Shown here piece after piece: positions 4,776-55,105 of a stretch of DNA of 64,000 nt. Location: the NCBI GenBank assembly GCA_021234155.1, contig JAJEKV010000020.1, positions 20,513,018 to 20,577,017 of the forward strand, given 5' to 3'. Position 1 is the first letter of the stretch. Every line of letters starts with the position of its first letter. The notes below the pieces were generated by a model that was given only the letters and a program-made list of their open reading frames with translations, was not told the DNA's origin and did no database searches. The DNA comes from Isoetes taiwanensis (lineage: Eukaryota; Streptophyta; Lycopodiopsida; Isoetales; Isoetaceae). The translations under genes and the position numbers were made by a program.

Positions 4776-5049
4776 CATTTGAAAACAAGATACGATCATG
4801 GAAAAGAATATGGTCCTATGGTATAACCTCCTATCTTAAAAAACTTGGTTTGGCTATAGTTTTTATAGAAATTTTTGAAATCTGGATAAAGTAAGGGACT
4901 TTTTCCCATTTTCTAGCCCAATTTGATGAGCTTGATTGGATGCATTCATAAAGGAGGGGAAGGAACATTTTTTGAGAAAGAGGAAATTTTTTATATCATG
5001 CCACATTGGCAATATTGAACATATAACGCACACATCACGCCAACATATA

Positions 5050-5109
5050 GAGAGAGGGAGGGGGAGGGAGGGAGGGAGGGAGGGAGGGAGGGAGAGAGAG
5101 AGAGAGAGT
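5050..5109 (+). repeat. GGGA/GA microsatellite
   Basis: A purine-only run of GGGAG and GGGA units is followed by (GA)n. The guanine triplets are regularly spaced, so the plus strand could form a G-quadruplex. Confidence 0.9.
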
Positions 5110-11176: not shown

Positions 11177-11743
11177 TATGAATCGCTCAGTAGAATATGT
11201 TCTAATATGGTGGCATATCAAGTCCTTGCATCCCATTTTGTAACCAAAGTGCCATCAGACCATCACGTGGAGAAGATGATTCTCTTAGACCATGTGCAGA
11301 AGATGATTCTATTACACCACATAGGAGGTACGCAGTTCCTTGATTTTCTTAATCTGTTACTAAAGTTAAAAGACCTCTACTTCCCTGGTGAAATACAAGA
11401 GTTCTACAACCTATAATTGAGTATAATCAGCAAATATGAAAAACTTTAGTCTGAAATCATTATACTTGGCATTTGAAAGTGCATATTAGGAAAGCTCTGA
11501 TTCTATAAACATAAAATTTACTATGAAGAAGTGACAAACATCCATTATGTATGCTGTTCGTGAAAGTTCGATTAAACAGCTGCAGTAAGGCACCTAAAAA
11601 AGGGGATTGGAGAATTGAACCCCACACCCCAGAAGACATATTTTTTCCTCAGTCTAGGAAGTAAATAAATTTCCCTTCAAAAAGTGGCTTGTTTAAATAA
11701 AACTTTCAAGTTCTAGATCGACCTATACAAGCATGCATACAGG

Positions 11744-13921
11744 ATGGTTAAAAATGAATACTATGCTAAGCTACCCAGGCAAGAAGCTAAGCAGGCATAC
11801 AGGAAATTTCTCAAACGGAAGGAGGCAGTTTGGGTACATGAATTGCAGGAAAAACTAGAGTATGAACTGCATCATGATGCACGAAAACTTTGGGCCAGAA
11901 TGAAGCCAGTTGCACCTCCCGCAGGGAAATTCAGTAGAGAGGATCTTCTTCTTTACGCACAGGAGTTGTATCATGTACCAGATGCCCCAAAAATGGAGGT
12001 GCCATCAGCTGAGGTATCCCAGGTGTTCGAAGCAATAGATATAGATGTGGCCCTAGAGAAGATGTCAAACGGCAAAGCGAGAGATTCTGAAGGGTTTGCC
12101 ATTGAATTGCTGAAATGGGGAGGGCCAGTAGTGCATGCAAAAGTGGCGGAGATGTTCAACATGTCATTAAGTGAGGGGTTTCCAGATCAGTGGTGTTTGA
12201 GCAGAATAGTGGCTCTCCTAAAAGCGGGTGATCCCAATTGTGTGCGAAACTATCGTACAATCATGGTGAGTAGTATTATGGCTAAACTATTTGGAGCGGT
12301 GGTTGAAAGAAAACTCTCACTACGGGCAGATAGAGAAGGGGTAAGAGCTCTTGGACAAGCAGGCTTTCGGAGAGACCATTCTAGTATTGATCACTTGTTG
12401 ACATTAAGGGTGATATCAGAGGGTTCCAAAGGGCCTAATAAGGCACTTTATGCTAGCTTTGTCGATTTTACTAAAGCGTTCGACAGGGTACCACGTGACA
12501 AGTTAGGAGAACGGCTTGAGGAGCTAGGATGCCCAGTTGGAATAAGAAAAGCAGTCTCTAGAATATATGAGCGGGTGCTGGTGGAACTTTCCTTTCCCAT
12601 GGCAGGTCCAGAGCAAGTAACGAGTAACATCGGGGTAAAGCAGGGATGCCCGCTTTCTCCCACCCTGTTCATAGACAGTTTAGAAGCTTGGCTGGCTTCA
12701 GAAATGGCTGGGGTTGAAGTAGGTGAATACCTTATCCAATTGCTACTCTTTGCAGATGATGTTTTACTGATATCAAGGACAAAAGAAGGGTTGCAAGAAC
12801 TGTTGGTCCGGTTGGAAAATTTCTGTAATCATACAGGGATGTCAGTAAACAAGAATAAGACCAAGATCATGGTAGTTGGGTCACGAGAACAAATAGAAAT
12901 GACTCTGGGTGGTGAGATACTGGAGCAAGTGCACCAATACAAGTATCTTGGGATCGAGTTTACTGATAATTATCATTGGAATGAGGCAATTAGGAAGAGG
13001 GTTGCTGGAAGCTATCGGGCTTTGTATAGTATAATGAGTCTTTGGAGAAGAACGCAGGTAAAAAAATGGCATCTCAGAAAATTGATGTTCAAGGTCATGG
13101 TGCAAACTGTGGCTCTGTATGCATGCCCGATTTGGGCTCCTGGTCTAGCTCAGGCAAGGTGGAAGGAATTAGAACAAATTCAGAAGAGATTTCTTCTCGA
13201 AGAGCTTGGGGCGAAGGCACAGACTCCATACGAGATGCTGCTGGCCGAGGCTGGTTTGTACCCATTAGAGGTGGAGGCTCTGTTTCAAACTCTAACGTAC
13301 TTGAAACGGATTCAAATTATGGATGTAAATAGGATACCTGTACAAGCATTATTAGAGTCTCAGAAACAGGAAAATGGTTGGTACACGCAACTAATAAAAT
13401 GGGCTGAATGCTGGGGCATACATGTTGATTCCTTACCGGATACAGAAATTGGGCTACGGGAACTTGTCACTGAGCAGGCTCTACTTAAGCTATGGCCACG
13501 GGATGGTGAAGAGATTGGCGTGAAGCGGGAGTTCTACAGGAGTGATGTGAATCCCATGCTGCTATATACAGAACAAGACTATTTGAAAGAGCTACCAGGG
13601 GGCAAAACAAGGCCGCTCATCTCGCAGTTTCGATTAAGCTCGCATCATTTACAAATAGAGATTGCCATAATGGAAAGGCCAAAAGTGCCCAGAGAGCTCC
13701 GGTTCTGCAAATGCTGCTTTGGGGGTGTGGAGGATGAATATCATGCTTTGCTAGCATGTGATTCTTTTCGCCACCTGCGGGAGCAACACAGTATAACTGC
13801 GCCCAATTTCCACACTCTATTACAATTGTCCCCACGGCATCTTGGAGGATACATACGCGAGTTTTGGGAGGAGAGAAAACAATTATTAGATCTATTTGAG
13901 CAAGTTGAGGATCTTGCCTAA
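11744..13921 (+). CDS. LINE reverse transcriptase ORF2 (725 codons, no endonuclease)
   Basis: An uninterrupted 725-codon frame encodes a non-LTR retrotransposon reverse transcriptase, which copies the element's RNA at a nicked target. Residues about 105-190 hold the finger motifs (KMSNGKARDSEGF, RIVALLKAGD, NYRTIMVSS). DFTKAFD is at 241-247, GVKQGCPLSP at 297-306 and the catalytic FADD at 336-339. A thumb and connection domain follow, then a C-terminal knuckle C655-x2-C658-x8-H667-x4-C672. The apurinic endonuclease that should precede this is missing: an in-frame TAG lies ten codons upstream at 11714 and the sequence before it is unrelated, so the copy is probably 5'-truncated. The intact frame suggests recent insertion. 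It differs in sequence from the L1 remnants elsewhere in the window. The ATG at 11744 is just the first Met after the stop; the true protein likely began further upstream. Confidence 0.93.
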   Translation: MVKNEYYAKLPRQEAKQAYRKFLKRKEAVWVHELQEKLEYELHHDARKLWARMKPVAPPAGKFSREDLLLYAQELYHVPDAPKMEVPSAEVSQVFEAIDIDVALEKMSNGKARDSEGFAIELLKWGGPVVHAKVAEMFNMSLSEGFPDQWCLSRIVALLKAGDPNCVRNYRTIMVSSIMAKLFGAVVERKLSLRADREGVRALGQAGFRRDHSSIDHLLTLRVISEGSKGPNKALYASFVDFTKAFDRVPRDKLGERLEELGCPVGIRKAVSRIYERVLVELSFPMAGPEQVTSNIGVKQGCPLSPTLFIDSLEAWLASEMAGVEVGEYLIQLLLFADDVLLISRTKEGLQELLVRLENFCNHTGMSVNKNKTKIMVVGSREQIEMTLGGEILEQVHQYKYLGIEFTDNYHWNEAIRKRVAGSYRALYSIMSLWRRTQVKKWHLRKLMFKVMVQTVALYACPIWAPGLAQARWKELEQIQKRFLLEELGAKAQTPYEMLLAEAGLYPLEVEALFQTLTYLKRIQIMDVNRIPVQALLESQKQENGWYTQLIKWAECWGIHVDSLPDTEIGLRELVTEQALLKLWPRDGEEIGVKREFYRSDVNPMLLYTEQDYLKELPGGKTRPLISQFRLSSHHLQIEIAIMERPKVPRELRFCKCCFGGVEDEYHALLACDSFRHLREQHSITAPNFHTLLQLSPRHLGGYIREFWEERKQLLDLFEQVEDLA

Positions 13922-24418: not shown

Positions 24419-26888
24419 TTATGCTTTAGCTGCAGCCAATGTGCTGGTATCCTTTGCAGTAAGCCTCTCAAATACATCCCTGATTTTAAGTCCAACAATT
24501 GTTTGGAAAAGCCCCGTCCCATTGTTGCTCCCAGGAAAATCGGCATGTTTCAACATTTGCTGTGTAATTTCTCCATAGAACTTTGTAGAAATGTTGCTGA
24601 GGTGACTTTCCACATAGATGAGCTCATCTAACTTGTCAAATTGTCCGTCCATTTCCAATATGGATACCTGCAAATGACCCCGTAACATTTCATCATCCAA
24701 TCATTATGGCATCAAGGATCCAGAAATTTAGGATTTAACAGTAGCATAAGTGATGTCACAGACTGTTATAAGACATAATCAATTTCAAAGCATTATGGAC
24801 AGACCACTTTGGGGGATTTTACATTAGCCAAAATATCAGGGATGCAGTCCTTAGAATATGATTGTTTCCCAAAAACGTTCCACGCACAAATTCATGAGTA
24901 GGATTCTAAGGCTGTGAAATGCTTAATGAATCTTGAAGTCGCAGCGATCTGAGATAAGGAAAATTTAATGCTTGATTAAGGAAAAAGAACCCGCACTACC
25001 AGGCCCAGCCAAATTAGAGAACATAGCACATATCTTACTCTACAAAACATCGAAGCATATCTATAAAACTAAGTGGTTTTTCTACCTGGTTAAATATAAC
25101 TCAATTACCTCATTATCATAGTAGGTGTCTGGACCATAGAAGAACTTGATTCCAGGATATGAACAAGTCAACTTCCTTCCGCATGGTATCCATGAGATAG
25201 TGGAACCTTCATCGAAAAGATATACAGGCTCAAAATCTTCAACCCCCTCTTTCATAATCATTCTGACTCGCAAAACCTTCCCTTCATTATCATCAGGTAT
25301 TAATTGCGTAGGCAAAACTTGGATCACCACATCCGCATATTGCTTTTGTGGATCTGCAGTCATGTTGCAGAAGATAAAGTAAGACTTGAAATGATGTATT
25401 GTTTCCCCTTACAATTTGAAAGACATCTACCTATATAAGCATCAAAGTCTGGTTTACGTGCAGCAATGCTAGCCTTAATACTCTCCAAGCTATGTCCTCG
25501 TTCTGCCATATCACGCTGCATCACACAATTTTCAATCTTAATTAGTTTACAAATAGTGATATGTCATATAATAATTTTCCATCTATAGATATACGTTAAT
25601 CAAGTCCTTATAATGCTGGCCTTTGATCTAGCCACATCATAAGTAAATAGTGCTATTGTATCATGGATGCTGCTATCAAGTTTTTCCCTTTTCAAAGCCT
25701 AACAATCAGAATGAAGAGAACAAATACTTCGAGTCCTTCCGCATGGTTCTGAGCTTGGTTATAATAAACCTTGCTGTTTCTAGATAACTATATTATTGTG
25801 AATCAGTAGAACTGCAAACTAGTTCTTGATTACAAAGGGATACAACCCTGTGCGTCTTATCTTATAAACCAAAAAATGCCATGTCAACATGCACTGGCAA
25901 GCATTCACCTTACTAATATGCATTACTATTGCATGAATGAAGTTTCAAACCAAACCTGTATTTTCCAAGCAAACTTGACTGCATCACTTATATCCAGGTA
26001 GATACTGAAGTCCAATAGGTCCCTGACGCGAGCATCAAACCTGAACACAAATCACACTTTAAAAGTATCAATATACATAGTCTCAGACTTTGATGCATGA
26101 AACAATAAATGCCATTGTAGCAAGCCTACAGCAGATGACCTGCAAATATTTCAATCCACCCTATTTTCTTAATATGATATCTAAAAGTTCTAAATCGGAA
26201 AGTCTGAGAATGAACCCAAAATCTAAGACCTGAATGGCTTTAAAAACTCTCATGCATGCATGAAATCCTTTCCTGCAGACTCTGTTGGAAGCTACTATAG
26301 TAGACAGCGGCGTACATACATTGGATGAAGACCTTCAATGACGAGGATTTTGGGCGGGGTAATCAACTCCGGCGGATCCAACAATCCACTAACATGGTTA
26401 TAGATAGGCTTCATAACCGATTTTCCCTCCTTGAGGGCTTTCACCTGCTCATACATAAGATCGAAATTGTTGGCACGAGGATCAAGAGCCGTAACGCCAT
26501 TCACCTTACGACCGGTCCTGTCTAGAGAATGATAATCATCCAGGCAAATAACTGTGGTAGTATCACTAATAAGGGTATTGGAATCAGGATTGCCTCCTTT
26601 GGGGGGAGAAGCTGCTCCCCCAAAAACACTGGTAAGGCGACGCATAAATGTGCTCTTACCACAACCAGAATCAGCAGCTAATCCGATAACAACAGTACTA
26701 TCAGAGGCCTTACAGACAATGAGGTAATTGCGATCTCTGGTGTAGGTATTCCGGTTCAACTTGTATTTGGAAAATTCAGCTCCCTTTCCGGAAGCCATAG
26801 CCGAGGACCAAGTGAGGGCATTTGGGGTACAAGCCAAACCCATCATGGGGCTGGCCGGAACAGCTGCAGAGGTGGTGGCAGAGGCCAT
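24419..26888 (-). CDS. PRK: Phosphoribulokinase, chloroplast precursor (5 exons)
   Basis: Phosphoribulokinase makes ribulose 1,5-bisphosphate from ribulose 5-phosphate and ATP in the Calvin-Benson cycle of the chloroplast stroma. Minus-strand exons are 26888-26320, 26040-25956, 25515-25431, 25353-25109 and 24667-24419. All four introns are GT-AG, and the phases join to a 410-residue protein, the usual length for a plant precursor. Residues 1 to about 58 are a Ser/Ala/Thr-rich transit peptide. The P-loop is GLAADSGCGKST (69-80). Regulatory cysteines are C76 in the P-loop and C115 in ICLDDYH. LDPRAN and VIEGLHPM follow, and exon 4 holds the C-terminal pair in WIPCGRKLTCSYPG. This pattern predicts thioredoxin control and binding to GAPDH/CP12. 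The start at 26888 was chosen because the transit peptide begins there; an upstream in-frame ATG at 27059 would add 57 atypical residues. No frame lesion is seen. Confidence 0.97.
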
Positions 26889-27060
26889 AGCTGGTGAACG
26901 GAGAGCCTGGCCCTGGCCTTGGCTGTGCGTTTGTGTGCACTGAATACGCAAACAAACAAATAATTCAGCAGCAAATAGGAAGGCGTGTGTGTGGTGTGGG
27001 AGATGGGGAACCCAATCCCATCTTCGTGCCACACCCCTGCCCTGCTTATTTTCCTCCACC

Positions 27061-27068
27061 CATATATA
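27061..27068 (-). promoter_or_regulatory. Possible TATA box of the phosphoribulokinase gene
   Basis: The minus strand reads GGATATATATG about 175 bases upstream of the chosen start codon. It is a reasonable TATA element by position and sequence, but AT-rich words are common here. Confidence 0.3.
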
Positions 27069-27129
27069 TCCAGATATACCACATTACAACTAACTTGTTT
27101 GGCCACAAGACGGATCTACCTTGGTGAAT

Positions 27130-39245: not shown

Positions 39246-39617
39246 TGTGCCCTGGGCTACCTCAATCGACAGATCCTCCATTCTACAGCCCAAATCTTAT
39301 ATTCGGCCCTCTGGATGCCTTTCGATTCGTTCCAAATCCCAATGTGCTACATATTCTCAATGGGTGCCTCTCGATTCATCACAAACCCCATGTTATTGTG
39401 CTAGATATTCTAAAGGAGGTGCGCCCTATACTATCGTAATCGTTGGATCCGTCCATCCTATAGTCTAGATCGTATGTTGGAACCTCGAAGTGCGCCCTGG
39501 ACTATCACAGTCGCCGGATCCATCCATCCTACAACTAGATCGTATGTTGGGACCTCTGGGTGCCTCTCGTTTCGATTATGGTCATTTATAATTGGGGGTG
39601 CCTATGATTTGGAATAT
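39246..39617 (+). repeat. Dispersed repeat R, middle fragment
   Basis: This part of R holds three related units with GCCCTGGACTA(C/T), GGATCCATCCATCCTA and GATCGTATGTTGG, then CCTCTCGTTTCGATTATGG and GGGGGTGCCTATGATTTGG. It ends in ATAT at 39617, where an inverted-repeat element begins. R resumes at 47297. Confidence 0.8.
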
Positions 39618-39645
39618 GGGTGTAAAATCGCTAGTGGGGTACAAC
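39618..39645 (+). repeat. Left terminal inverted repeat
   Basis: GGGTGTAAAATCG then CTAGTGGGGTACAA pairs with the complement of 47269-47296, with one substitution in the first 13 bases and small indels after that. Confidence 0.7.
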
Positions 39646-39864
39646 TTTTGGCGAAGCGTTTAAGCACTTTAAGTGCTGAAACTCGCGGACGTCGAAGCCC
39701 GTCACGCCCTTCTCCCTCCTTTTCCCTCGGCTGAAACTCGTAATGTTGTTTCACCGCTGATGATGGAGGCATGGAGCGCGATGATTTTCACAAAGATCGA
39801 GGTCTCAGGTAACCGGGGTGAAGCCCCATGAGGAAGAAGCTTGGTTGGAAAATAATGTCACGGA

Positions 39865-40640
39865 TTGAGATTGGGATTCTGTTTGGACAAAGAAGTTGAA
39901 CAAGGGAAAGATAAAATGGCACTATGCAAAGGAGCATCTTCAAGAGAAGTTGGAAACACTCACGAAAAAATCTACAAGAATTGTCACAACAAAGAAGTAA
40001 GAAAGCAACCGCCCCTTGCTTTTATGCTTGAAAATTGCACTAGATCAATACTTGCACCCGAGGAACACAAAGTAAACCGGGCTGCATTTGTCGCGGCAAT
40101 GCCAAAGATACCACAACAATAGACAAGTAAAAACAGAGGCGATGTTGTAGCACATGTTAGGAAAACTGAAATGAAGGCAAAGCCAAAGGTGGCAAATGGA
40201 TCAAATGAGATCGCATGTGATGAAAACATAAAACCTTAGAGAATGCAAAGACAGAGATTGGAAAATCAGTTTTACTTATCACAAAGAATCTAGAAGCAAA
40301 GAGGGAAGTGAGCTGAAAGGCAATGAGAAGGCCTCCTCAATTACAAAAAATGATGTTGGAAGAGGCCGAGAACAAAGTTTAAGACAAAGCCACAAATGAT
40401 TTGGCTACAAAACAGAGGAGTTCAAGCTTAATCCAAACCGTGAGTTGGAGGCGTAAATTAAAGATTTGGAGCGCATCGTCCCAGATGGAAACTTGACACA
40501 GAATAAGGTACAAAAAGCAATGAACCCTACATCCAATGATGAGCAGGTCAAACGAAACTCAAACTTGAGGAGGAGTTAAAAGTTCTCAAGAAGAACAGAG
40601 ACTGTGATTTCTACATAAACAATTTAGGAAGCTGAAAATG
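39865..40640 (+). pseudogene. Lys/Glu-rich coding fragment, unrecognised
   Basis: Broken plus-strand frames are rich in Lys, Glu and Asn (EEHKVNRAAFVAAMPKIPQQ, LKLEEELKVLKKNRD), as in a coiled coil. The composition differs from the surrounding AT-rich non-coding DNA, so it may be the 5' part of the gene whose phosphatase-like domain lies at 41.7-42.2 kb. I do not recognise a family. Confidence 0.35.
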
Positions 40641-41047
40641 GATACTCCTCAAAACATTTAGCATCTCTACTATTATACGAGATAAGTTGTTAGTGGAAGA
40701 TCCATTTTATACATGTTCAAAGATGTGGTCCGAATTCACTAAAGCTTAAAAGTTAAGTTTAGCAATCGAATTGCCAACATGATTATCATATAACTTGTTG
40801 TTCATTGTTGAGAGGAGGACAATGTATTCATGGTTACCCCGAAAGGTGCCGAGGGTGTATTTGACGAAAGCTAGGTTTTGGCCATGTTGCGTGTGCTTCA
40901 AATAGTACACCAAAAAAAGGATGTGTTAATCCGTCCCGCAATTAAGGTCTCACTCTTCGTGGTTCAAAGAAGGACAATGGTGCCATTTGAAGATGTACAA
41001 CACCCGCAAAGTCCTATAGGAGTACAAACCAATTGTGACTGATTTGA

Positions 41048-41490
41048 ATGCAACAAACAGAACCACCACCACCAGTCCAAGAAGTCTGTCCAAGAAGCTA
41101 TAGAAGAAGTCAGAAACACAAAGACCGCCAGAAAAAAAACAGACCGATTGTACACACCGAAGCACCTAAGGAAGTTGAGGGAGTAATTCTATCTGATGAG
41201 GGCAACTTGGGTGAATATTTGCCAAAAAGGAAAGGGCGTAAGAACAAAGTGGGGTAAGCCGGAGGATAGCAAAGAAGTTGTTCAAAGCTACAAGAAAGAG
41301 AACAAGAAGTAGCTATGCAAAAGATGCAGGAAGCAGTCTCAATCATGACACCACACCTATCGAAGTGTGTTCTGAAGAAAATGCAGATTCAGGCCCTCAA
41401 GTTTCAGGTGAGCCTAATCTTCAAACAGTGATTGATGCCCTTAAGTGTGGAAAGTGCTGGGCAAGGCCACAACTTAGTCTTGCTTAAAAC
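41048..41490 (+). pseudogene. Possible middle exons of the phosphatase-like gene
   Basis: Two short frames in different phases are hydrophilic and of coding-like composition (KHKDRQKKNRPIVHTEAPKE; SGEPNLQTVIDALKCGK). They lie in line with the domain that follows. Linkage is inference. Confidence 0.3.
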
Positions 41491-41649
41491 ATTGAATATT
41501 ATTGATTTTCTTTTGTTGCATTCACTGTAGGATTACCATTTGATTCTCAAGTAGGTCGAGAATCCCGCCGTTGATACGTAAAGGTTTCCACATTCAACCC
41601 ATTTTTCATTTTCATCTTCATCTATTTATTCATGTAGTAATTCCTGTTG

Positions 41650-42237
41650 TGTAGGTGTTCAGGATGTTCCAACGTACTAAATATTGATTTGGCAGCAAAA
41701 GATAAACTAATTGTCCTGGATTTAAATGGTGTGTTGGTAAAAATATTTGGTGCAAATGAACACATACGCTTGGAAGCAGGATTGACAATGACATACACTA
41801 GCAGAAAGAAAGTGATATTCGCACTGTATGCGTGTTCTTCTTCTTGAAGACTTTGTTACGTATGTTGTGTTGGTATATGGTCATCAATGCAACTCTCTAA
41901 TGTGGAAGATGTGTCGCAAGTACTATGTCCGCATTTGAGGGACGGATTTCAATTTGTATGGGGACAGAAAAAAAATGTGAAGACCAATTTTGAGCACCCT
42001 AACAAACCCGGGGTGTCCAAATCCATGATGAAGCCACTTGAAAAAATATATGAGTCATACCCAAGATTCAAAGGTAAGACTTTGCTTCTTGATGATTCAT
42101 TATACAAGTCTTACCTTAGCAGCCCCTCGAAATTTCCGCACGGTACCAAGCTCAAGATGGATGTCTATGATGAAGTGCTAACAAGATTTCACCCCAAAGA
42201 TAGAAGAAATACCGCAGCCAAGACCGAGGAAAAATGA
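41650..42237 (+). pseudogene. FCP1-homology (HAD-type) phosphatase domain, frameshifted
   Basis: FCP1-homology phosphatases remove phosphate from Ser in proteins such as the RNA polymerase II tail. LIVLDLNGVL at 41707-41737 fits HAD motif I, though the second Asp of DxDx is Asn, so catalysis is doubtful. GIWSSMQLSNVEDV (about 41875-41915) matches the motif after the flap, LRDGFQFVWGQ follows, and TLLLDDSLYKSY (about 42079-42114) is HAD motif IV. Between the first and second parts the frame shifts near 41868, and the conserved region there is partly degenerate, so this copy is broken or has an unseen intron. The frame ends with TAG/TGA at 42237. It sits inside the 7.7 kb inverted-repeat element and may be captured cargo. 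Confidence 0.7.
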
Positions 42238-42559
42238 AATCACCGGGTGAAGAACACACACGATACAAGCCCCGCCTAAGATAGATAGAAAGATGATGAA
42301 GCTATGCTTGGAAAGACTTTCGAAAACAGCTTGCGCTCAAGCAGTTTGTGAAGGAGGAATTGAGAAGGTTTATGGTGATGAAGATTGTCATTCTCCATTG
42401 TCGTGATTAAGCCCGACATTTATGATTATTGGCTTGATTGTCATTTACTTAGGCCAAGGAATCCTACACTTTTCATGTACCATCTTTATCTTAATTTAAG
42501 AATCTTTTTGCTATATTGTTTATGTAGTTCAATGCGACTTTTGTCTATAAGTTTTTGCT

Positions 42560-42905
42560 ATATTGTTTATATCTACTTCAATGCCGACCGCAAGGGATGC
42601 TTAAAACTTATCAAGTGCTTAAAAAAAAAATTGCCCGCAAGTGCTAGTCCGGTATGAGTCTTAATGGCGATAATCGCTTTATTGTCATGCAAAGGATGCT
42701 TACTTTTATGTAGTTGCTTAACGCGCCAGCGTATGTTAATGTCATCATGTGCTTACCGTCATGCGCGCTTAAGGTGCAAAAGTTTTATTGTTAAGCTATA
42801 TAACCGCTTAAAGCTAGTCAAGTTTATTGCATAGTGCTGTGGTGTTCCAAAGGTTTACCAATCGGGTAATCGCTAAACCGATTAAAATGCTTAGTGTTTG
42901 AAACT
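42560..42905. repeat. Spacer rich in GCTTAA/GCTTA words
   Basis: Between the two convergent gene remnants are at least seven words such as GATGCTTAAAAC, AGTGCTTAAA, GTTGCTTAAC, GCGCTTAAGG and CCGCTTAAAG. Similar words lie by both element ends and at 43830-43870 and 44160-44185. Confidence 0.5.
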
Positions 42906-43242
42906 AATTAAAGAGCTAGAGCACCGTTACATTCAAGCGTAATCAAATGATCGCATGTGAATTCAACTTCATAAATTTGATAGATAGACAAAAATAACAT
43001 TTGATAGAGAAACAAAAACTTTGATAGAGACAAAGATAGAAACAAAGATACAAAAAAAAGTTTGATAGAAACAAGATTTTTATAAAAAAAAGGCCCTCGT
43101 GCCAATGTACACAAAAAATGTTATATACAAAATTTTTTACAAAAATTCGGCCCCGAGGCCGGTCTTCTTCTTCGTATGGGGTGTCTTCTTCAAGGGGGTG
43201 TCTTCAAGGGGGGTGTCGTGGGGGCGCCTTCGTGGGTGTCTT

Positions 43243-43814
43243 CTATAGGGGTGTTTTCTTCATCTTCATTTGCTTCTGCATCTTCATTCTCCATCTGCAA
43301 CAAATGAAAATGAAAAATTGATTACAGAAAAAAAATGAAACATGCATACCTTTAAGGAGCGCCATGAACGCCTCCAAATCGGCCGTTTCGTCTTCAATTT
43401 CGTCTTCCTCTTCTTTTTCTTCCCGGACTTCTTCTTTCTCGGACTCGTCTTCTTCTTCTTCTTCGCCACCCATTCCCCGCAAAACAAAGAAGACATATTC
43501 CTCGAAGACATTTCCGATTCCTCATTTTTTGATTCCTCATAGGAATCAGAAGATGAGGAATCGGAATCAGAAGAATCCTCTTCAAACTGAGAGGCAGTAG
43601 AGTGGGCAGGAGAGGAGGCAGCAGAGGAGGCAAGTACCTCAGGCAAAGGCGGGAAGAGTGGAGGGAACACCTCTTCGATGCTTAGTAAGCGCCTCTTCGA
43701 GGTGACCTCCAGCTCCTCCCTGCATGCTCGCTTCATGCCGGAGGAATTGGGAATGCGGATTGGGCGGAGTGCGGAGGAATTGGGAAGGAGTGCGGCGGGG
43801 AATGGGCAGAGCAT
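43243..43814 (-). pseudogene. Acidic, Ser/Lys-rich protein fragment, frameshifted
   Basis: One 176-codon minus frame begins with a Pro/Ser-rich part (SIEEVFPPLFPPLPEV), then a Ser/Asp/Glu stretch (EEDSSDSDSSSSDSYEES), then Lys-rich sequence. The overlapping frame turns the latter into a Glu-rich stretch ending ADLEAFMALLKGMH, which reads better, so a frame change is likely near 43480. It may be the C-terminus or a separate gene of the transposase-like unit upstream. No family is recognised. Confidence 0.4.
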
Positions 43815-44699
43815 GAGCTTGTGAGAAGAGCTTACGCTTAGGCGCCACCGCTAAATCCGCGTGCTTAGGCGCCACAAGTAATAAAAACCTCACACGCCGT
43901 AACAATTAATTCAGAACTGTGCTTAAATATTTCAGATGACCAAATGAATTGACACATGTCACATCGAGGAAATGCCTTGACAATATAATTTTGCAAAGAA
44001 TGTTGGGATAGTGATGGTACCAAAATAAATAATTAAATCTTATTCCAATGTCACAAATCTACATTCTTATAAACAACAATTCAATCTTCATTTCGAAGTA
44101 CGTGTCCATGCACACCACTCTTGTGCATCCTCACTATTATTATTATTATATATAAAAATATGTGCTTACGTGCTTAGGTGCTGGAACAACAAATCACTTG
44201 AAAAGAATAACATCAATTTCAAGTATGTCAAAGAATTACAATGTTATTGGGAGATCGCCATAATTTTTTCATGGGTCTCCCGTGAAATTCTCATACATGT
44301 CTATGCCTTCTATTTTTCCATATCAATTTTAGGATATCTTACCACATACATGGTCAGGTACCCTGAGGCTTCGGTTGTTTAGTGAGCAACATGTACTTGA
44401 AATTACCCAAGAATTGATAATACAATCCACTTAAGATAACCTCATGCACTCCAAATTTTGCCCCCATCCATCTTTTTGTATGAATCTTCAAGCGTGCATT
44501 TGGGTTCAGGCACTTGAGGATGTAGAAGTCCACACCCTCCTAATTGTCTACCTCCGATTCACCGCAAAATTGTCACCTACCTCTACCAAATTACTCGATC
44601 CATTCATTGGCTTGTTCAAGAGTCTCCTTTTTCGCCTCAACTCCCGGTTTTAAGTCGCCATACCTCCCACTTTCCAAATCTACTTGTATTGATGCAGAG

Positions 44700-46620
44700 T
44701 CCCAATTATGATCCATGCAAAACAAGCGTAAACATGACATGCATCTATGAGCAAGCCTCGCTTGGTCTACTCCTCACGGACAGTCCGATACAAAGGAATC
44801 TTCTTTGTGCCTTTGAGTGTTTCAATTTCATATTCTTCCATGTTTGCCACAACAAAGCAGTTCAATTTCCCAAAAATATCTTTTTGATCTCATCTGTTTC
44901 ATCAACCGGTAGATCAAATAAATATGTACACAAAAATTTTACAATATCTTTAGCGTGCCTCGCTTGCACACCATTGCATTTGAGTTGTTCCTTACTTGGC
45001 AGCCTTTTTGATAACAAAGACTGCACCATCATGTTCACCTTTACCATGAGCAAAGGGCAAAGTAGTTCCACACTATTTCCTTTGTCATTGATTGTGAAGT
45101 ACCCGCCTAAGAAAAAAAAAAAAAGGTTTTCCTCGACTTGAATTGTGATGAGCAGCCATCACTCCAAACCCAATGCTTCTCATACTCTATTTCCTCGCTC
45201 CTTAAGCCATGCAACATGCTTTTGTAGGCAAAGTGTTCCACAAATAATGAGTCATGCACTTTATCATCGAAATGTAAAAGTGAGTCTCTTTTCTCGATCT
45301 TCCTAATGTTGTTGAGTCTATTCCCCGATCCGCTACAACCTTTCGTTTTTTTTTTTTCTTTGACTTTGGATGCTTCTTCTTCGCACAGAACGTGAATATC
45401 GCGACTTTTGTCATGTCTATATGTTATGTGAACAAGTATAGAAACTTGGTCCAGATGCCGCATTGACTCGGGCTCATTCCGATCTTGATGCTGTAATTTT
45501 CTCAAAAGTCAATAATGTATACAATTGTATCTTCCGAAATGATGACACACACTGTTTAAACCGATTGGCCCGCCAATGTGCTATGTAATTGTGTGGAACA
45601 AAATCTGATATTACCTTCTTCACTTCCTCTTGAAACTCTTTTTGGGACTTCTCTCCCTCAGACTAATCTCAAGACAGTTTGTACCTCAAAGCCTTTCTTG
45701 ATCCCCTCAATTCTCTCGCCCCGTCCCACGTGTTGCTTTTCAAATGTCTTCCAAGTAACTAGTAATCAACCCGTGCCATCCATTTCCTCGTGGACATTTT
45801 CTAATTCTATCCAACCCACATTTTTTACACGCCAACATCAAGCGCTTATGATCAAACCACTCCTCATCATCACCTTTGCCGCAGACCACTTGTCTCTATA
45901 AATCACCGGTGCTCTTTGATTGTATGCTCCTTTGGCTGCACATTCTCGGGCCAGGGCCACAAATCTCACAAAGGATGTTGCAATTGTCATGAACTCCACC
46001 CGATTTTCTCAGTCCGTTCAATCCCCGCATGATGTATTCAAATTTCAAGTGGTAGATGCAACAAAGATGTATGCCTCTCACGCATCCTCCTTACAAAACT
46101 CGGTTTCAACCTCTCAAAAGTCTGCAATGCAATTTTGATTTGAGGATTCTCCTCTCTAAACCTGAGGTAGAATTGCAACTGCAGGGAAATCATGTGAATG
46201 CCAAATAAATGCTACATATAATGAACCGCCAAGTGGGGATGAATACTTACTTGGCTAACTTCAAGAAGGTGAATTGATGTTCCATCTTTATTCCCTCCGC
46301 GCTCTCTCGATACATACCTCCTCACGCCTTTTCTTGTATGGAGAAACTCTTGTCCAGAACTTGATAACAATTTCTCTATTGTAATCTAACATGCTATCCA
46401 TCCGTTTCCTCCTCCTGAACATTGACCAAGATCCTTCCCCTTTGTTAGCTTGCACCCTTCTTTGAAAAGCATTTGAAATTGTTTTTCCGGGATGCCGAGC
46501 AACCGCCACTGCTTTGATTCAATGGCTTGACACCATTTGTACCGCCACGCCATTATCGTGGTGGACTTCCTTGCACCTAAGCATGTCATGATTCCTCTCA
46601 TACTTATGTTCTTGCATTGT
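44700..46620 (-). pseudogene. Transposase-like protein remnant (WSDGC / HGKGEHDGA type)
   Basis: Minus-strand frames carry WVWSDGCSSQFKSRKTFFFF (about 45107-45166), then HGKGEHDGA (45021-45048) and EQLKCNGVxARHAKDIVKFL (about 44940-45010). This pair, SDGC-x-x-QFK followed by HGK-G-xHDG-x-G, is a recurrent signature in uncharacterised transposase-like plant and algal proteins; its Asp/His residues could be catalytic. Upstream are DQVSILVHITYRH (about 45430) and an N-terminal part with RYKWCQAIESKQWRLLGIP (46470-46560). Several frame changes and stops mean the copy is inactive as written. It faces the phosphatase-like remnant tail to tail in the same element. Confidence 0.55.
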
Positions 46621-47268
46621 TTTCTTCAAATTCTTCACCATTTGCTCGACCATAGTAACCCTCGCTTAGATTTCTTTATAGAATCAATTGGTAAATCCTT
46701 TGCCCTCCAAAGAAGACCGCCAAGGATACGGCCTTTGTCATTGTCATCAACATTTGTACTAATTTGGTTGAATACTTCATAAATTTCTCCTGAAATTTCT
46801 CTTATTCTCATGGGTCACTCTCACCTCAATTTCTTATTCTTCTTTGAAGGCTAATCTTTAGAAGGGGAATCTTCTTCATTGCTACCTTCTTTGCATACAA
46901 TCTCTGCCTCTGATCTCTCTTCCTTGCTGCATCAATGGCTCTGTAAATTGAACGGGGAGAGGAATTGGGTTTCATCTGTCCCGGATTTCTGTGTATTGCA
47001 AAATTGGTGAGGGCAAATTGTTGAATTTCGGTTCAGGCAATTCTTGGAAACAATTAGTCCCTTCATTTTGCTTGAATTCAAGATGGGTTAGCCCACCATC
47101 CACGAATATGGCGGGCTACAGGCATTTATGTTTCCGGCACCAAACAAAGTTCATGATTCTTCAAATTGCCATTTGATCGGGCGCCAAGATGTCAATTGAT
47201 CAATCAAGCACGTCGTGTTTAAAACACGCCGATTTTAAGCACTTGTAAGCGGCGTCCGGACGGTGATT

Positions 47269-47296
47269 TCTGCTACCCAGTACCGATTTTGCACCC
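47269..47296 (-). repeat. Right terminal inverted repeat
   Basis: Reads CTACCCAGTACCGATTTTGC then ACCC on plus, the inverted partner of 39618-39645. Confidence 0.7.
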
Positions 47297-47440
47297 ATAT
47301 GTAATACTAGATCGTCTAAGGTTTTGGAATATGAAGGGGGCTCGAACATCTACCAAAATATTTTAATATCTTAATAACAATGCTTTAACCAATGCAACCA
47401 GCCGCAAGCTAATATGCTTATTTTTTCTATTGTATCCATG
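47297..47440 (+). repeat. Dispersed repeat R, right fragment of the interrupted copy
   Basis: ATATGTAATACTAGATCGTC, TAAGGTTTTGGAATATGA, GGGGGCTCGAACATCTACCA and AACAATGCTTTAACCAATGC recur at 47897-48010. Confidence 0.8.
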
Positions 47441-48050
47441 TTTTATATTTTATTTTATTTTTTAAATAATAACCCATTCAGTTGTTTTGGGGATATGGTC
47501 TATGGTCTTAGGAATGGTGATTTATGCGTCCAAATTAAACCCCCGTAGAACCCTTATTATTGTGCTACATGTTCAAAAGGAGATGCACCCTGGACTACCG
47601 CAGATCGGATCTGTCCATCTTAAGTCCAGATCGTATGATGGAATCTCTGGGTGCTCCCTGGACCACTGCAGTCGTCGGATCCATCCATCCTATAGCTAGA
47701 TCGTATGCCGAGACCTCTGGGTGATCGTATGATGGAATCTCCGATGCTCCCCGACCATTGCAAATACGCCGGATCCATCCATATTATAGCTAGATCGTAT
47801 GTCGAGATCTCTGGGTGCCTCTCTTTTCGATTATATAGAATAGAATAGAATAGTTTTTTTATCGTAATTTATGATTGGGGGTGCCTATGATTTTGAAATA
47901 TGTAATACAGGATTGTCTAAGGCTTTGGAATATGAAATATGGGGGCTCGAACATCTACCAAAATAATTCAATATCCTAATAACAATGCTTTAACCAATGC
48001 AACCGGGGAGGTAATATGTTTGTTTTTCCTATTGTATCTATTTTTTTTTT
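47405..48050 (+). repeat. Dispersed repeat R, complete tandem copy
   Basis: It runs from TAATATGCTTATTTTTTCTA through TTCAGTTGTTTTGGGGATAT, three GATCGTATG-containing sub-units and GGGGGTGCCTATGATTTTGA to TAATATGTTTGTTTTTCCTA. The same edge sequence is found at both ends about 600 bp apart, so R copies lie head to tail. A short AGAAT microsatellite (47837-47856) sits inside. Confidence 0.8.
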
Positions 48051-49920
48051 AGCGCAACAGCCCAACCACGGGTGTCACCTTATCTTAATTCTTAGCCTAT
48101 TCACATGTCTCTAAAAATGACTTGGAGTCTAGTCAAACCCTTGGATCTCGATCTATATAAAAGAATGTCCAAGAAAAATAGTTGCTAGTGGCCTTTCGCA
48201 AAGATCTTCCGGTCTCCATCCCTGCCATTTTGCATCTCATTCTAACCTACTGTAGTTGGAACAGACATTATTCTGATATAATAACAGCCAGCATGAAAAG
48301 ACAGCATGAAAAGACACAATGCATATGTATATAAGTGTGGTATTTGTAGTAAAAAAGGAGACTGGGATACGCTACGGACTGAGGGGTCTAAACCCCGCCG
48401 TAGGCCAGGATAGCGAGGGCACGACCCTCCAACTGGTTCCCGAATCACCAAAATGACTGAAGGAGAGCCTAAAGGCTTTAATAAATAATAGCTTACAAGT
48501 GCTCTTACATCAAGTGCTTGAGGATGTGTTGCAGATTATGTGAAGACCTCTATAGAATAATCAAAAACCATGTTTGGGACTCTACAAGAAGTTTTGCCAA
48601 CTGCAGAATGTCCAACAAAGTGGAACAGGAAATAGCACAATCAATTATGCTGCAGGCCTTCAAAAAACTCGAAGATGAGGATGCTCATCTAATCAGGTTT
48701 TTTCATTTGAATTGAATAGCTAGTAACACACAAAACAAGGGAAGTGTGATACCACTATCTGCATAATCTGGATAATTGATCTTTTCATTCTTTTATCATC
48801 ATTAGGTATAAATATAGATTGGCTGTTGTAAGATATGAAATTGGACGGTTTCTTTGCACAATGCATCAGTTCTATCAACATAGTATATGCATGCTATGTA
48901 TGAAATTAGGAAGTTTCTTTAGACGCTTTACACTAATATAAATCTGGACTATTAGGCAATGACTACATAAGTTGGGGATTGTGTTAACATAGTGTAGTTA
49001 GAATATTTCAAGATGGTTTATAAACACGGACCTTTGGACACGTGATGTTATGTTGACAGTAATTACTACATATCCATAGCTCCGGATTGGAGCTCTAATA
49101 AGTACTAATCAGTTTAGTTTAGAGTTTTTGCAGCCTAACAATAATGGCGTGGGAAAAATCCAAAATCCAGAATGACCCTCAAATCTGGGCATACTCCATA
49201 GCCAAGAATGTAGAAATGGGGGGCATGCGATGGTGGTGGCAGCAGGCTATAAGGATGGATGTTCAAGAGGCAGCATGGGAATGGCAATGGCAGCATGGGA
49301 ATCCAAAATCCACCAGATGGAGAAAGGATGTGGCAGCGGAAATCCAAAATCCAAAATGATGGAAAAAGGATCTGATACTTATTTTGGGCATTAGTGAGCC
49401 CATTACTATTAAGTTTTTCCAAAACCCTTCTTAGGGTTTTTTAATCCCCGATAGTAATCGGGTGCATTAATGTAGTCCGTGCCGCTATGCGACTCTGCAT
49501 TGTCACACGACACCACTATTGGGCACCAAGACTATGCAGAACAATTGTAAAAGGAAAGGAACTAAGTGTCGGGTCGCTGAGGGGCCTCCCGAATCACCAC
49601 CGTGATAGAGCGGGTACAACCCACCTACCGGTGTTCTATTTCCACATTCGAAAGTGTCAGCGCCAAAAACTTAGGGTTCATAATCTGGCCCAATACTAAA
49701 GGTGGGACAGTGGAATCCACAATGTGTACAACTCAAAGTTGTTGATAGTGAAGCATCACTGCACGACCACGATGCCGAAGTAAAGCGGGATGCTGGTAAT
49801 AATAGAAAAAGTCACCCTTCTAAAAAGGCTACATCATAACAAATATGATGTGCTAACAAATGCCTTTCGTGGAGCTCGCCCATGCTACACAAGTCCAGAG
49901 GTCCTCAAGCACAAGGGACA
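48051..49920. other. Gene-free stretch
   Basis: No recognisable coding frame. TCCCGAATCACC occurs near 48438 and 49590 in GC-rich patches that may be parts of one repeat. A Trp/Gln-rich frame at 49144-49359 comes from repeated GGGAATGGCA words and is not convincing. Confidence 0.45.
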
Positions 49921-52220: not shown

Positions 52221-52424
52221 TGTTGAAGACATCACAGTCTGACACTTGGCATACATCACAACATGACAGTTGGCAGCATGCAGAGCCGTTGTTATTCTGT
52301 TTCCCATTTACTGTTTTATGTCTGATTCATGATTCGCTCCAAGGAGCTCACTGTCTTTAGTTCCAACTCCTGAATCAATAGATCAGTTGTTTGCTTTGTA
52401 CTCGTTTCTCGCTTTGCTCTCACA
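52221..52424 (+). repeat. Copia 5' LTR
   Basis: From TGTTGAAGACATCACAGTC to GCTTTGCTCTCACA, directly followed by the primer-binding site. Matches 56723-56928. Confidence 0.88.
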
Positions 52425-52436
52425 TGGTATCAGAGC
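52425..52436 (+). promoter_or_regulatory. Copia primer-binding site
   Basis: TGGTATCAGAGC, complementary to the 3' end of initiator methionine tRNA, directly after the LTR. Confidence 0.93.
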
Positions 52437-52473
52437 ACAGCTCTTGATCAAATTCGTGATATCAAGAGAGGTC

Positions 52474-53711
52474 ATGTCTGCAAGAACGAGCAATATGACA
52501 TCGGTATTGAATCCTAGTATGGCCCTTTTACGTCCTCAAGCCTTTGATGGCAAAGGCTACGATGGATGGAAAAGGATGGTAACACTGTATTTGAAGGCAG
52601 AAATGCTATGGGAGGTAGTCGATGGCAGTGAGCCACGACCTGAAATTACGAAGGCAGATGATCCAGCCCAACAAAAGGCTCTTCTGCTATGGAAGCAAAA
52701 AGATAGCAAGGCATTGGCATGTTTTGCCCTATGCCTTTCCAAGAATGTATTGCAAGTAGTTGGGGGGGAATTAGACAAGAGCAGCCGGAATCTTTGGGAT
52801 TTTCTCAAGATCCGTTATGGCATGAGATCTGAGGTAGAATTACTGCAGATTCACCAAGAGTTGGAAAACCTAAAATTCCAAGATGGCCATGACATTCGTC
52901 TCCATGTAGCCAAACTTCAAGAGAAGTTTGATCAACTGGCTAATGCTGGACCAGACCATGCTCTTTCTAATCCACAGAAGAAGTTACGTCTCTATACTTC
53001 TCTTCCATCCACATGGACACATACTGTGGAACTCATGATGACATCCCAGAAAACAGCATCTTGGGATGACATTGTTGAAGACCTGGTGGAGATCTCTCTT
53101 ATGCACAAGCAGCGTGGAGACCACAGCAAGCCTGAACAGGCATGTGTGGCACAAGCAAAGAATTCATCCAATTCTCAAAATCGAAGGCCCCCTCTTGCTC
53201 TGATGGCACACCTCTTCGGAAAGATCAATGCAAAAATTGTATGGGATTTGGACAATATGCACATGAATGCCCCAGCAAGCCATATCGAGGATCATCCTCT
53301 TCTTCCAATTCTTCTCTCTCTAATGCTGTGAAGGACGCTTCTGGTACCCCTGCTTCAACTACCAAGAAGACAAATGAATCTGCCCATATGGTTGAAGCTT
53401 TGACTCTTACAGAGGAGAACTGTCTCATGGAAGAAGCCTGTATTTATGAAGCGACGAATTTTCTCATGGAAGAAGCATTTATTTCTGAAGTTGGATACCT
53501 GGAAGACCAAGCATATTTTGCAGATACTCCTGATACTCCAGTTCAAGATGTTACAAAATCTCATGTTCTGACAGTAGATTCGGCTTGCACGTCCATTATG
53601 GTGAACCGTCCTGAATTTCTTGTGGATTCCATGCCCATCCATGGTGGTGTGCTCAGATTGAAGTCACTGGCAAAGGCATATTTCATCTCCCTCTTCTTGA
53701 AGGGTCCACTA
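52474..53711 (+). pseudogene. Copia gag and protease region, frameshifted
   Basis: From the ATG at 52474 the frame encodes a copia gag (QAFDGKGYDGWKRMVTLYLK, DHALSNPQKKLRLYTSLPS). Near 53185, in a run of five C, it must shift to keep the nucleocapsid knuckle CKNCMGFGQYAHEC, where the canonical His after the second Cys pair is Gln. The protease active site is in LTVDSACTS (about 53574), with DSA for the usual DSG. Another one-base shift near 53660 (AAGTCACTGG for AAGGTCACTGG) is needed to join the integrase frame. Confidence 0.88.
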
Positions 53712-55105
53712 TGAATTTCCCAAATGCTTTACTAGTTCCAAGCCTGTGTAAAAACTTACTGTCTGTTGCAAAATTGGCCGACCAGGGACTGGTAACTTTC
53801 TTCACTTCTGATTCAGTTTTGTTGTTTCCCAAAGACGACGTTATTTCGGGAACTCCTATTGCCAAAGGTAGCAGGGTTGGGAATCTTTATGAGATCCCTA
53901 TTCCTTCCACAGATCAAAGTTTTCTTACAGAAACCTCCCCATGTTCTCTCTTGCTTTGGCATCGCCGTTTTGCCCATCTTAACATTAAGAGTCTCAGGTT
54001 TTTGACCCATCGACATCTTATATCAGGCATTCCCTCTCTACTTTTGGTTGACCTTGGCATTTGTCATGCATGCATGCTTGGCAAACATGCACGCCGCACC
54101 TTTGCTGCTATTGAGCATCGAGCAGATGCAATCTTGGAACTTGTTCACTCAGATTTATGTGGTTCCATGGAGGTTCTTGGTCACACTGGCAGCAAGTATT
54201 ATATTTTCTTTATTGATGATCACGGCCGACGCGTGACCATCTATTTTCTCAAGAGGAAGAGTCATGCCTTAGAAGCTTTCAAGATGTTCAAAGCTTCAGC
54301 TGAAAATCAGACTGGGAGAACCATCAAATGCTTACACACAGATGGTGGTGGTGAATACATCAGCAATCTCTTTCAAGATCTTTGTCGCTATGCTGGTATC
54401 CATAGGCAATACACCACTCACCACACTCCTCAACAGAATGGGGTCGCCGAAAGGAAGAATCGCACCATCTGTGAGGCTGCCAAAAGTCTTCTCATCCAGG
54501 GACATTTGGATCGAACGTTTTGGGAAGAGGCTGTTGCAGTTGCTGTTCACACTCAAAATCTTTCCCCTACAGTGGCAGTTCCTGATTCAACACCTCATGA
54601 AGCTTGGTTTGGAACCAAGGCTGATGTCTCTCATCTTCGTGTATTTGGGTGCACCGCTTATGCTCAGGTACCCAAAGATCTCAGGTCCAAATTTGCAGAC
54701 AAGAGCATACAGTGCCGATTTGTTGGTTATTCTTCAAACCATAAAGCGTACAAGTGCTGGGATCCCGCTACAAAGAGCATAATTGTAAGTACTGATGTTC
54801 ATTTTGATGAATTTCGCATTCCTGGACAGATTGAGGATGCAGACTTCATCGATTTGGGGCTACTCGTATCTGATCCTCCCAAGTCTTTCATTGACCAAGA
54901 AGCAGCCCGCTTAGCTCGTGCCTCCATTTCTGATCCTTCTTCTTCTGTTTCACATCCACCGTCACTCATTACCCATGAATTCTTGCCCAATGATGATGGT
55001 CGTATCTCTGATCCACCTGCACCCATTCCTTCTGATTCAATCCCTGCCACCGAACCCTTGCTTCCAACACTAGTTCCCCTCAACGCATTCACACACCGTC
55101 CTTGA
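53711..55105 (+). CDS. Copia GAG-pre-integrase and integrase (464 codons)
   Basis: Integrase inserts the element's DNA copy into the host genome. This uninterrupted frame has the GAG-pre-integrase domain with LWHRRFAHLNIKSL and the HHCC-type end CHACMLGKHARRTF. The integrase core keeps all three acidic residues: Asp in HSDLCG, Asp in HTDGGGEY and Glu in GVAERKNR. VFGCTAYAQVPKDLRSKF then follows, plus a Pro/Ser-rich linker. The frame stops at 55105, before the reverse transcriptase. The Met at 53711 is not a natural start; the protein belonged to a polyprotein. Confidence 0.92.
   Translation: MNFPNALLVPSLCKNLLSVAKLADQGLVTFFTSDSVLLFPKDDVISGTPIAKGSRVGNLYEIPIPSTDQSFLTETSPCSLLLWHRRFAHLNIKSLRFLTHRHLISGIPSLLLVDLGICHACMLGKHARRTFAAIEHRADAILELVHSDLCGSMEVLGHTGSKYYIFFIDDHGRRVTIYFLKRKSHALEAFKMFKASAENQTGRTIKCLHTDGGGEYISNLFQDLCRYAGIHRQYTTHHTPQQNGVAERKNRTICEAAKSLLIQGHLDRTFWEEAVAVAVHTQNLSPTVAVPDSTPHEAWFGTKADVSHLRVFGCTAYAQVPKDLRSKFADKSIQCRFVGYSSNHKAYKCWDPATKSIIVSTDVHFDEFRIPGQIEDADFIDLGLLVSDPPKSFIDQEAARLARASISDPSSSVSHPPSLITHEFLPNDDGRISDPPAPIPSDSIPATEPLLPTLVPLNAFTHRP

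Follow-up and report, generated by a model that had tools for sequence, protein, structure and literature searches.

A probable two-gene terminal inverted repeat transposon with convergent transposase-like and RING-type genes in Isoetes taiwanensis

Within a window of 64,000 nucleotides of Isoetes taiwanensis DNA (contig JAJEKV010000020.1, positions 20,513,018 to 20,577,017 of the forward strand), positions 39618-47296 hold a 7.7-kb transposon whose inverted ends, 21 bp long and imperfectly matched, lie inside an ATAT duplication. We put the probability at roughly 85% that it represents, in decayed form, a high-copy DNA transposon with terminal inverted repeats (TIRs) and two genes, a transposase-like gene on the minus strand and a plus-strand gene with a phosphatase-like domain, which meet tail to tail in the window and in further copies. 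This convergent arrangement, the inverted GGGTG ends with their ATAT flank and an empty site in the next repeat copy had been described in an earlier, sequence-only reading of the window, and all of them were found as described.

Boundaries, copies and gene linkage of the element

The ends of the element are GGGTGTAAAATCGCTAGTGGG and the complement of GGGTGCAAAATCGGTACTGGG, which are identical at 18 of 21 positions in the consensus of 14 sequences, and in the window copy they are flanked by ATAT on either side. When the two flanks (400 bp each) were joined and searched against the window, they matched the empty site at 47859-48051 across the junction, with 85% identity over 199 bp. The window copy is dead, with stops and frameshifts breaking both genes. 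Part of these breaks may be assembly errors, because Nanopore reads, followed by polishing, underlie the I. taiwanensis assembly according to the available part of PMC8566536 (PMC10541799, likewise available in part, is a further Isoetes genome paper).

The genome searched comprises 1,658,258,908 bases in 1110 contigs. The first 28 bases of the left end, with at most two mismatches, were found at 363 places (174 forward and 189 reverse) and the backwards pattern used as a control at none, so that these ends, referred to below as those of family 1, are not confined to the window. For a closer look, the first 20 of 40 scored left ends (40 of 468 candidates were scored) were taken, and because they were chosen among 40 that are all identical over 80 bases, this sample leans to well-preserved left ends. 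The right end was present as the exact motif in 14 of the 20 copies, in a degenerate form in one (L017) and not within reach in five. Among the 15 copies whose right end could be recognised, the flanking 4-bp duplications were identical in 12 (GGAA, ACCA twice, TGAT, CTCT twice, AAGG, TTCT, AGAT, AATG, CATT and ATCA), agreed at three of four bases in two (L010 and L024) and did not match in L017, and target duplications show no motif among the sampled copies. Further family-1 duplications are ATAT in the window and TCAT in the reference copy C1018. Both ends are retained in L010 (2.9 kb) and L011 (3.4 kb), which are short derivatives with internal deletions. Fourteen aligned family-1 sequences, among them L021, which was placed with a guessed end, diverge by 4-11% from their own consensus. 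Also, beside a family-1 copy that lacks its left part, positions 1155-2792 of L029 hold a frame that by eye looks like a Helitron-type helicase.

The linkage of the two genes was studied by protein searches limited to the best 150 of 4526 transposase candidates and the best 150 of 5487 candidates (152 matches) for NIF, the phosphatase-like domain of the plus-strand gene, and the resulting counts are lower bounds. At least 46 transposase/NIF pairs less than 15 kb apart were found among 150 x 150 matches, where about 0.4 would be expected by chance; all 46 lie on opposite strands, 45 are convergent and 36 are 2.5-3.2 kb apart. At the first 100 listed left ends, a listed NIF match on the same strand lies at 2.05-2.7 kb in at least 28 cases, a listed transposase match on the opposite strand at 3.6-6.6 kb in at least 29 (of which 27 fall within 5.0-5.9 kb), and both at no fewer than 8. 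Conversely, 28 of 45 listed NIF and 29 of 51 listed transposase matches on those contigs attach to a listed left end, and it is by these fixed distances that the ends are tied to both genes. Similarly, BLAST comparison of the 20 copies chosen by their left ends found both gene regions nearly whole in 13, so that both genes recur between the ends; copies with a single gene exist, but as deletions. In L009 the plus-strand gene is kept and the transposase extends to element position 6269, which includes most of exon 2.

With its inverted ends, a duplication of fixed length, an empty site and dispersed copies, the element is a TIR DNA transposon. Two host genes might also have been multiplied by segmental or tandem duplication in the absence of any transposon, and several family-1 transposase and NIF matches do form a local cluster within about 90 kb (C1094, 2.13-2.22 Mb), but the dispersal of the copies, the exactness of their ends and duplications, and the empty site make this explanation highly improbable.

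The spacer between the two genes had been described as full of GCTTAA words that also occur near the ends. In the window copy, GCTTAA/TTAAGC occurs 14 times versus 4.5 expected (first-order Markov; maximum of 11 in 200 shuffles), with eight of the words in the spacer (seven of these at 42.4-42.8 kb) and a single one close to either end. The consensus holds 11 versus 3.9 expected, which only equals the shuffle maximum of likewise 11. The words are thus enriched, yet more weakly than first described, and a role as binding sites is putative.

The transposase-like gene

The transposase-like gene (minus strand, 44239-46975) has one intron, which measures 72 bp in the window by its coordinates and 73 bp in C1018. 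Exon 1 begins with ATG and is followed by GTAAGT, the 73-bp intron closes with CTGCAG, and both splice sites are retained in the window. Open transposase frames of 627, 611 and 515 amino acids (aa) were found in L029, L030 and L031, respectively, and agreement with the L029 frame is 94% for L030 and 83% for L031, whose frame slips register near its end. A composite of copies suggests a protein of about 880 residues, in which a helix-turn-helix (HTH)-like segment and a Cys-rich region can be distinguished along with three motifs, VIDFAENY, WSDGC and HGKGEHDG. As judged from sequence motifs, D169, D286 and E325/D327 (L029 numbering) may constitute a DDE/D triad. These residues fall in motifs common to families 1, 3 and 4 (the diverged families are described below), and HGKGEHDG provides either E325 or D327 as the candidate third residue of a DDE or DDD triad. 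Some predicted proteins of animals may carry a similar DFAENY/SDG/HGKG pattern.

In Pfam, no family exceeded the cut-off for the transposase and the catalytic part was without any match at E ≤ 10. Sub-threshold matches of the N-terminal part included HTH-like, BEN, NinH and other models (best E 0.013), and the transposases of families 3 and 4 also gave sub-threshold matches only. The broken window copy, translated in all six frames, yielded CDC45 at E 0.35 and nothing else from Pfam, and the sole match in a profile search of PDB with the transposase was a mannanase (E 0.76). Searches of viral contigs and prokaryote genome contigs with a few peptide patterns confirmed no relatives.

One interpretation is that the element represents a superfamily of its own, outside those in Repbase. 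A transposase that reaches no Pfam cut-off, with a catalytic part that has no match even at E ≤ 10, is consistent with this, as are the viral and prokaryote collections in which those few peptide patterns confirmed no relative. However, absence from Pfam does not imply absence from Repbase, animal proteins with the pattern mentioned above would also speak against it, and we place this interpretation on the doubtful side.

The RING-type partner gene and the diverged families

The plus-strand gene, open reading frame 1 (ORF1), encodes an N-terminal domain followed by a RING-like finger and, past probable introns, the NIF domain. Letters derived from the consensus score against the NIF family of Pfam with E = 9.1e-11 and 42.1 bits (cut-off 21.8), and the window read-through with E = 2.3e-4 and 21.3 bits, just under this cut-off. 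In PDB, the NIF domain matches UBLCP1 (3shq) with E 2.5e-5. RING-type Pfam models are below cut-off throughout, with a best E of 0.0044 for the family-2 homologue and of 0.11 (zf-RING_16) for the family-1 frame of L029. The catalytic motif of FCP1-type phosphatases is DxDx(T/V). By eye, window copy, consensus and C1018 all read DLNGV here, with the first Asp retained, and because Asn stands for the second Asp, phosphatase activity is doubtful and the term phosphatase-like is preferred. The domain thus resembles the phosphatases FCP1, SCP and UBLCP1 in its consensus-derived Pfam score above cut-off and its UBLCP1 match, and differs from them in its location inside a transposon, next to a RING-like finger, and in DLNGV. 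Many copies hold NIF at a fixed place, in open frames of about 250 aa. The RING and NIF parts would form one protein. In the sequence-only reading the phosphatase-like domain had been taken for cargo; at 42.1 bits the NIF domain itself is real, but it is probably not free cargo and probably constitutes the C-terminal part of the RING-type second protein.

Diverged relatives place this gene in a wider setting. The family-1 copy on contig C1018 encloses a 5.6-kb element of family 2 with the ends GGGTGTTTTTTTATTG / GGGTGATTTTTTATTG and ATCA as the best candidate duplication (one other, weaker pair appeared in the first of two scans), and in this nested element a RING gene (38% identity) converges with a transposase remnant (29-39% identity). 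A comparison by eye shows GGGTG, GTGG and GTACAA in register at the left end in both family 1 and family 2. When the best 150 of 1763 candidates for the family-2 RING were scored, identities ranged from 35 to 100% and many frames were open. Three loci were taken from these matches, of which L036, another family-2 copy, has the duplication CTAT. Family 3 (L034, duplication ATTT) has an open ORF1 of 487 aa and a transposase that is 31-51% identical to that of family 1 depending on the segment, with 50-51% identity and the same motifs in the core. Family 4 (L035, duplication AACT) has a 585-aa frame and a transposase 31-46% identical to that of family 1, which likewise keeps the motifs; its RING assignment comes from similarity to family 2, and no RING-type Pfam model is listed for it.

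Ends of the ATCA, ATTT, AACT and CTAT copies were located with a scan that requires a duplication. For every one of these four loci a single candidate was returned, and mismatched left/right controls hit in 2 of 12 cases, one being a 20/20 match that probably stems from a shared repeat and the other lying at the threshold. When the duplication rule was dropped, the same pair still ranked highest at three of these loci.

In all four copies of families 2-4 the ends start with GGGT, the duplications measure 4 bp and the transposase gene converges with a RING-type gene. NIF was not detected by tblastn in these copies (two of family 2 and one each of families 3 and 4), nor by eye in L034-L036. The RING part therefore accompanies the transposase in all four families sampled and NIF was detected in family 1 only, and because of this distribution the coiled-coil/RING protein is taken as the older partner and the NIF domain as probably an addition of family 1, with loss elsewhere being possible.

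Three further observations concern the diverged families. Family-3 RING matches at C423:310203, which is the fetched copy, and C1054:7784748 have equal scores, identities and 487-aa frames, which suggests a recent pair. The HGKG-EHDG motif is continuous in family 1 and, by eye, seemingly split by an intron in L034 (about 4480-4550) and L035 (about 4590-4710; oriented coordinates), so that an intron could have been lost in family 1. In L036 (reverse-complement), the family-2 copy (906-6607) has on either side frames that by eye resemble Gypsy reverse transcriptase and integrase (1-855 and 6512-7927), as though it had jumped into a Gypsy element.

Several observations weigh against the reading of a two-gene transposon. 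Among the matches on the contigs mentioned above, 17 of 45 listed for NIF and 22 of 51 listed for the transposase stand apart from every listed left end, and the majority of those ends are without a listed match to either gene (best 150 matches per gene). Much of one or both genes is missing in 6 of the 20 sampled copies (L010, L011, L019, L023, L026 and L028), which look like truncated or internally deleted derivatives. The transposase has no fold support, and an AlphaFold model from three closely related sequences reached a mean predicted local distance difference test score of 30 and was not used. The joining of RING to NIF exons is inferred. In the scan without the duplication rule, the family-4 boundary pair (L035) was only tied for first, and the boundaries of this family are therefore the least certain. 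Finally, by a rough estimate, neither gene shows clear purifying selection among family-1 copies, with an observed/expected ratio of nonsynonymous versus synonymous changes of 0.64-1.11 across six blocks and for private and shared changes. Such a near-neutral ratio is the pattern expected of decay after insertion, and function of NIF in the source copies is therefore neither shown nor excluded by it.

The same near-neutral change within family 1, the failure to detect NIF in the four copies of families 2, 3 and 4, and the doubtful activity implied by Asn at the second Asp of DLNGV would all suit the view that family 1 captured NIF from the host as a passive fragment without a role in transposition. 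Against this stand the fixed place of NIF in many copies, where its frames stay open over about 250 aa, and the similarity retained at Pfam level; we regard passive capture as possible, at somewhat less than even odds.

Classification, possible mechanism and neighbouring features

Duplications measure 8 bp in hAT and 3 bp in PIF/Harbinger elements. CACTA/EnSpm elements have CACTA/CAC ends and 2-3-bp duplications, and Chapaev elements have 4-bp duplications. Elements of this group share with the Isoetes element a size of several kb, repeated subterminal words and, in the case of Chapaev, the 4-bp duplication; CACTA was rejected on the GGGTG ends, the duplication of 4 bp and the lack of a plant CACTA transposase model among the Pfam matches. 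KDZ (Kyakuja-Dileera-Zisupton) elements encode a large transposase with Cys-rich regions, for which Pfam holds a profile, and Zisupton duplications measure 8 bp. The Isoetes transposase is likewise large and has a Cys-rich region, and KDZ was rejected as neither a KDZ nor a CxC model was among its Pfam matches at E ≤ 10. ProtoRAG, a RAG1-RAG2-like system, combines a convergent transposase and a conserved second protein in one TIR transposon with a 5-bp duplication; two convergent genes in one TIR transposon are common to both, and the duplication length and the proteins differ. According to the available part of PMC10741241, MULE duplications are 7-12 bp long and Tc1/mariner uses TA. Duplications of 4 bp without consensus exclude hAT, MULE, PIF/Harbinger and Tc1/mariner, and the poor fit to plant superfamilies that had been noted from the sequence holds for these and for CACTA on ends or duplications.

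The element may alternatively be a member of the known Sola superfamily (Sola1, Sola2 and Sola3), in which case its novelty would lie only in being a lycophyte lineage that carries RING/NIF as its second gene. In the available parts of PMC10741241 (Sola) and PMC3627910 (Sola2), Sola elements are TIR DNA transposons of several kb with 4-bp duplications, short TIRs and a DDD-type transposase, which agrees with the duplications, 7.7-kb size and TIRs observed here; the third residue of the Isoetes transposase would be either E325 or D327. Sola is recorded in the moss Physcomitrella and in Capsicum (PMC9033089, in the part available). However, duplication length alone is a weak criterion and the likeness is one of description; also, Sola2 duplications are AT-rich according to the same part of PMC3627910 and most of those of the Isoetes element are not, and a RING/NIF partner gene is not mentioned for Sola in the text available. 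Membership in Sola is a tentative possibility that we would rate slightly below an even chance. The element is thus filed as a TIR transposon, with its superfamily left between these readings and Sola fitting by description. The label 'undescribed' given to it by the sequence-only reading is supported in part: no Pfam family exceeds the cut-off, and searches for Sola and for NIF/FCP1 phosphatases or RING fingers with transposons gave no description of the element among the literature matches listed (a scope outside subscription literature and Repbase).

A cut-and-paste mechanism can be proposed in which the transposase, with its N-terminal HTH-like part, Cys-rich region and DDE/D-type core, would bind the GGGTG... 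ends, excise the element and join it to the target at positions 4 bp apart, a stagger that would leave 4-bp duplications without target preference. Since the RING protein accompanies the transposase across diverged families, the convergent coiled-coil/RING protein probably helps transposition or its control, and in family 1 it would have gained an NIF/FCP1-type phosphatase-like domain, active or not. It is conceivable, but in our estimate clearly unlikely, that all this amounts to an uncatalogued superfamily of GGGT-end transposases with convergent RING partners, one lineage of which fused an FCP1-like domain and spread to hundreds of lycophyte copies; if so, this domain might engage Pol II or chromatin factors and thereby escape silencing. 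Nine superfamilies of plant DNA transposons, seven of them with TIRs, are distinguished in the available part of PMC10741241, and Sola is rated uncommon in flowering plants in those parts of the review literature that were available. In the Isoetes genome, a large and diverse lineage makes 4-bp duplications and has a transposase under every Pfam cut-off, and a second protein kept across families, with a traceable domain gain, opens its accessory role to comparison with and without NIF.

Table 1. Coordinates of the element and its parts in the window.
Feature	Position	Strand	Remarks
4-bp target-site duplication ATAT, left	39614..39617	.
Left terminal inverted repeat, 21 bp	39618..39638	+	18/21 with right repeat in consensus
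ORF1 N-terminal domain	39871..40100	+	related to its family-2 counterpart; alignment score 96, reached by none of 1000 shuffles (maximum 60)
ORF1 RING-like zinc finger and following region	40609..41120	+	38% identity to family-2 RING
ORF1 NIF (FCP1-like) phosphatase-like domain, probable C-terminal part	41677..42397	+	Pfam PF03031; PDB UBLCP1 3shq
Spacer between the two gene ends	42398..44238	.	GCTTAA/TTAAGC words concentrated at 42.4-42.8 kb
Transposase exon 2	44239..46178	-	VIDFAENY, WSDGCSSQFKS, HGKGEHDG region; frameshifts and stops in window copy
Transposase intron, GTAAGT...CTGCAG	46179..46250	-
Transposase exon 1	46251..46975	-	HTH-like segment (sub-threshold Pfam)
Right terminal inverted repeat	47276..47296	-
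4-bp target-site duplication ATAT, right	47297..47300	.
Empty-site counterpart, next repeat copy	47859..48051	+	85% over 199 bp across junction

Elsewhere in the window, a 734-aa frame at 11717-13918 (plus strand) matches the reverse transcriptase family RVT_1 of Pfam (E 3.9e-28) and probably belongs to a retroelement. Copia-type gag and integrase domains at 52333-55102 (plus strand) mark a long terminal repeat retrotransposon that is spread across several frames. A 262-aa frame at 26298-27083 (minus strand) with a phosphoribulokinase/uridine kinase domain (E 4e-43) is perhaps an exon of a host gene.

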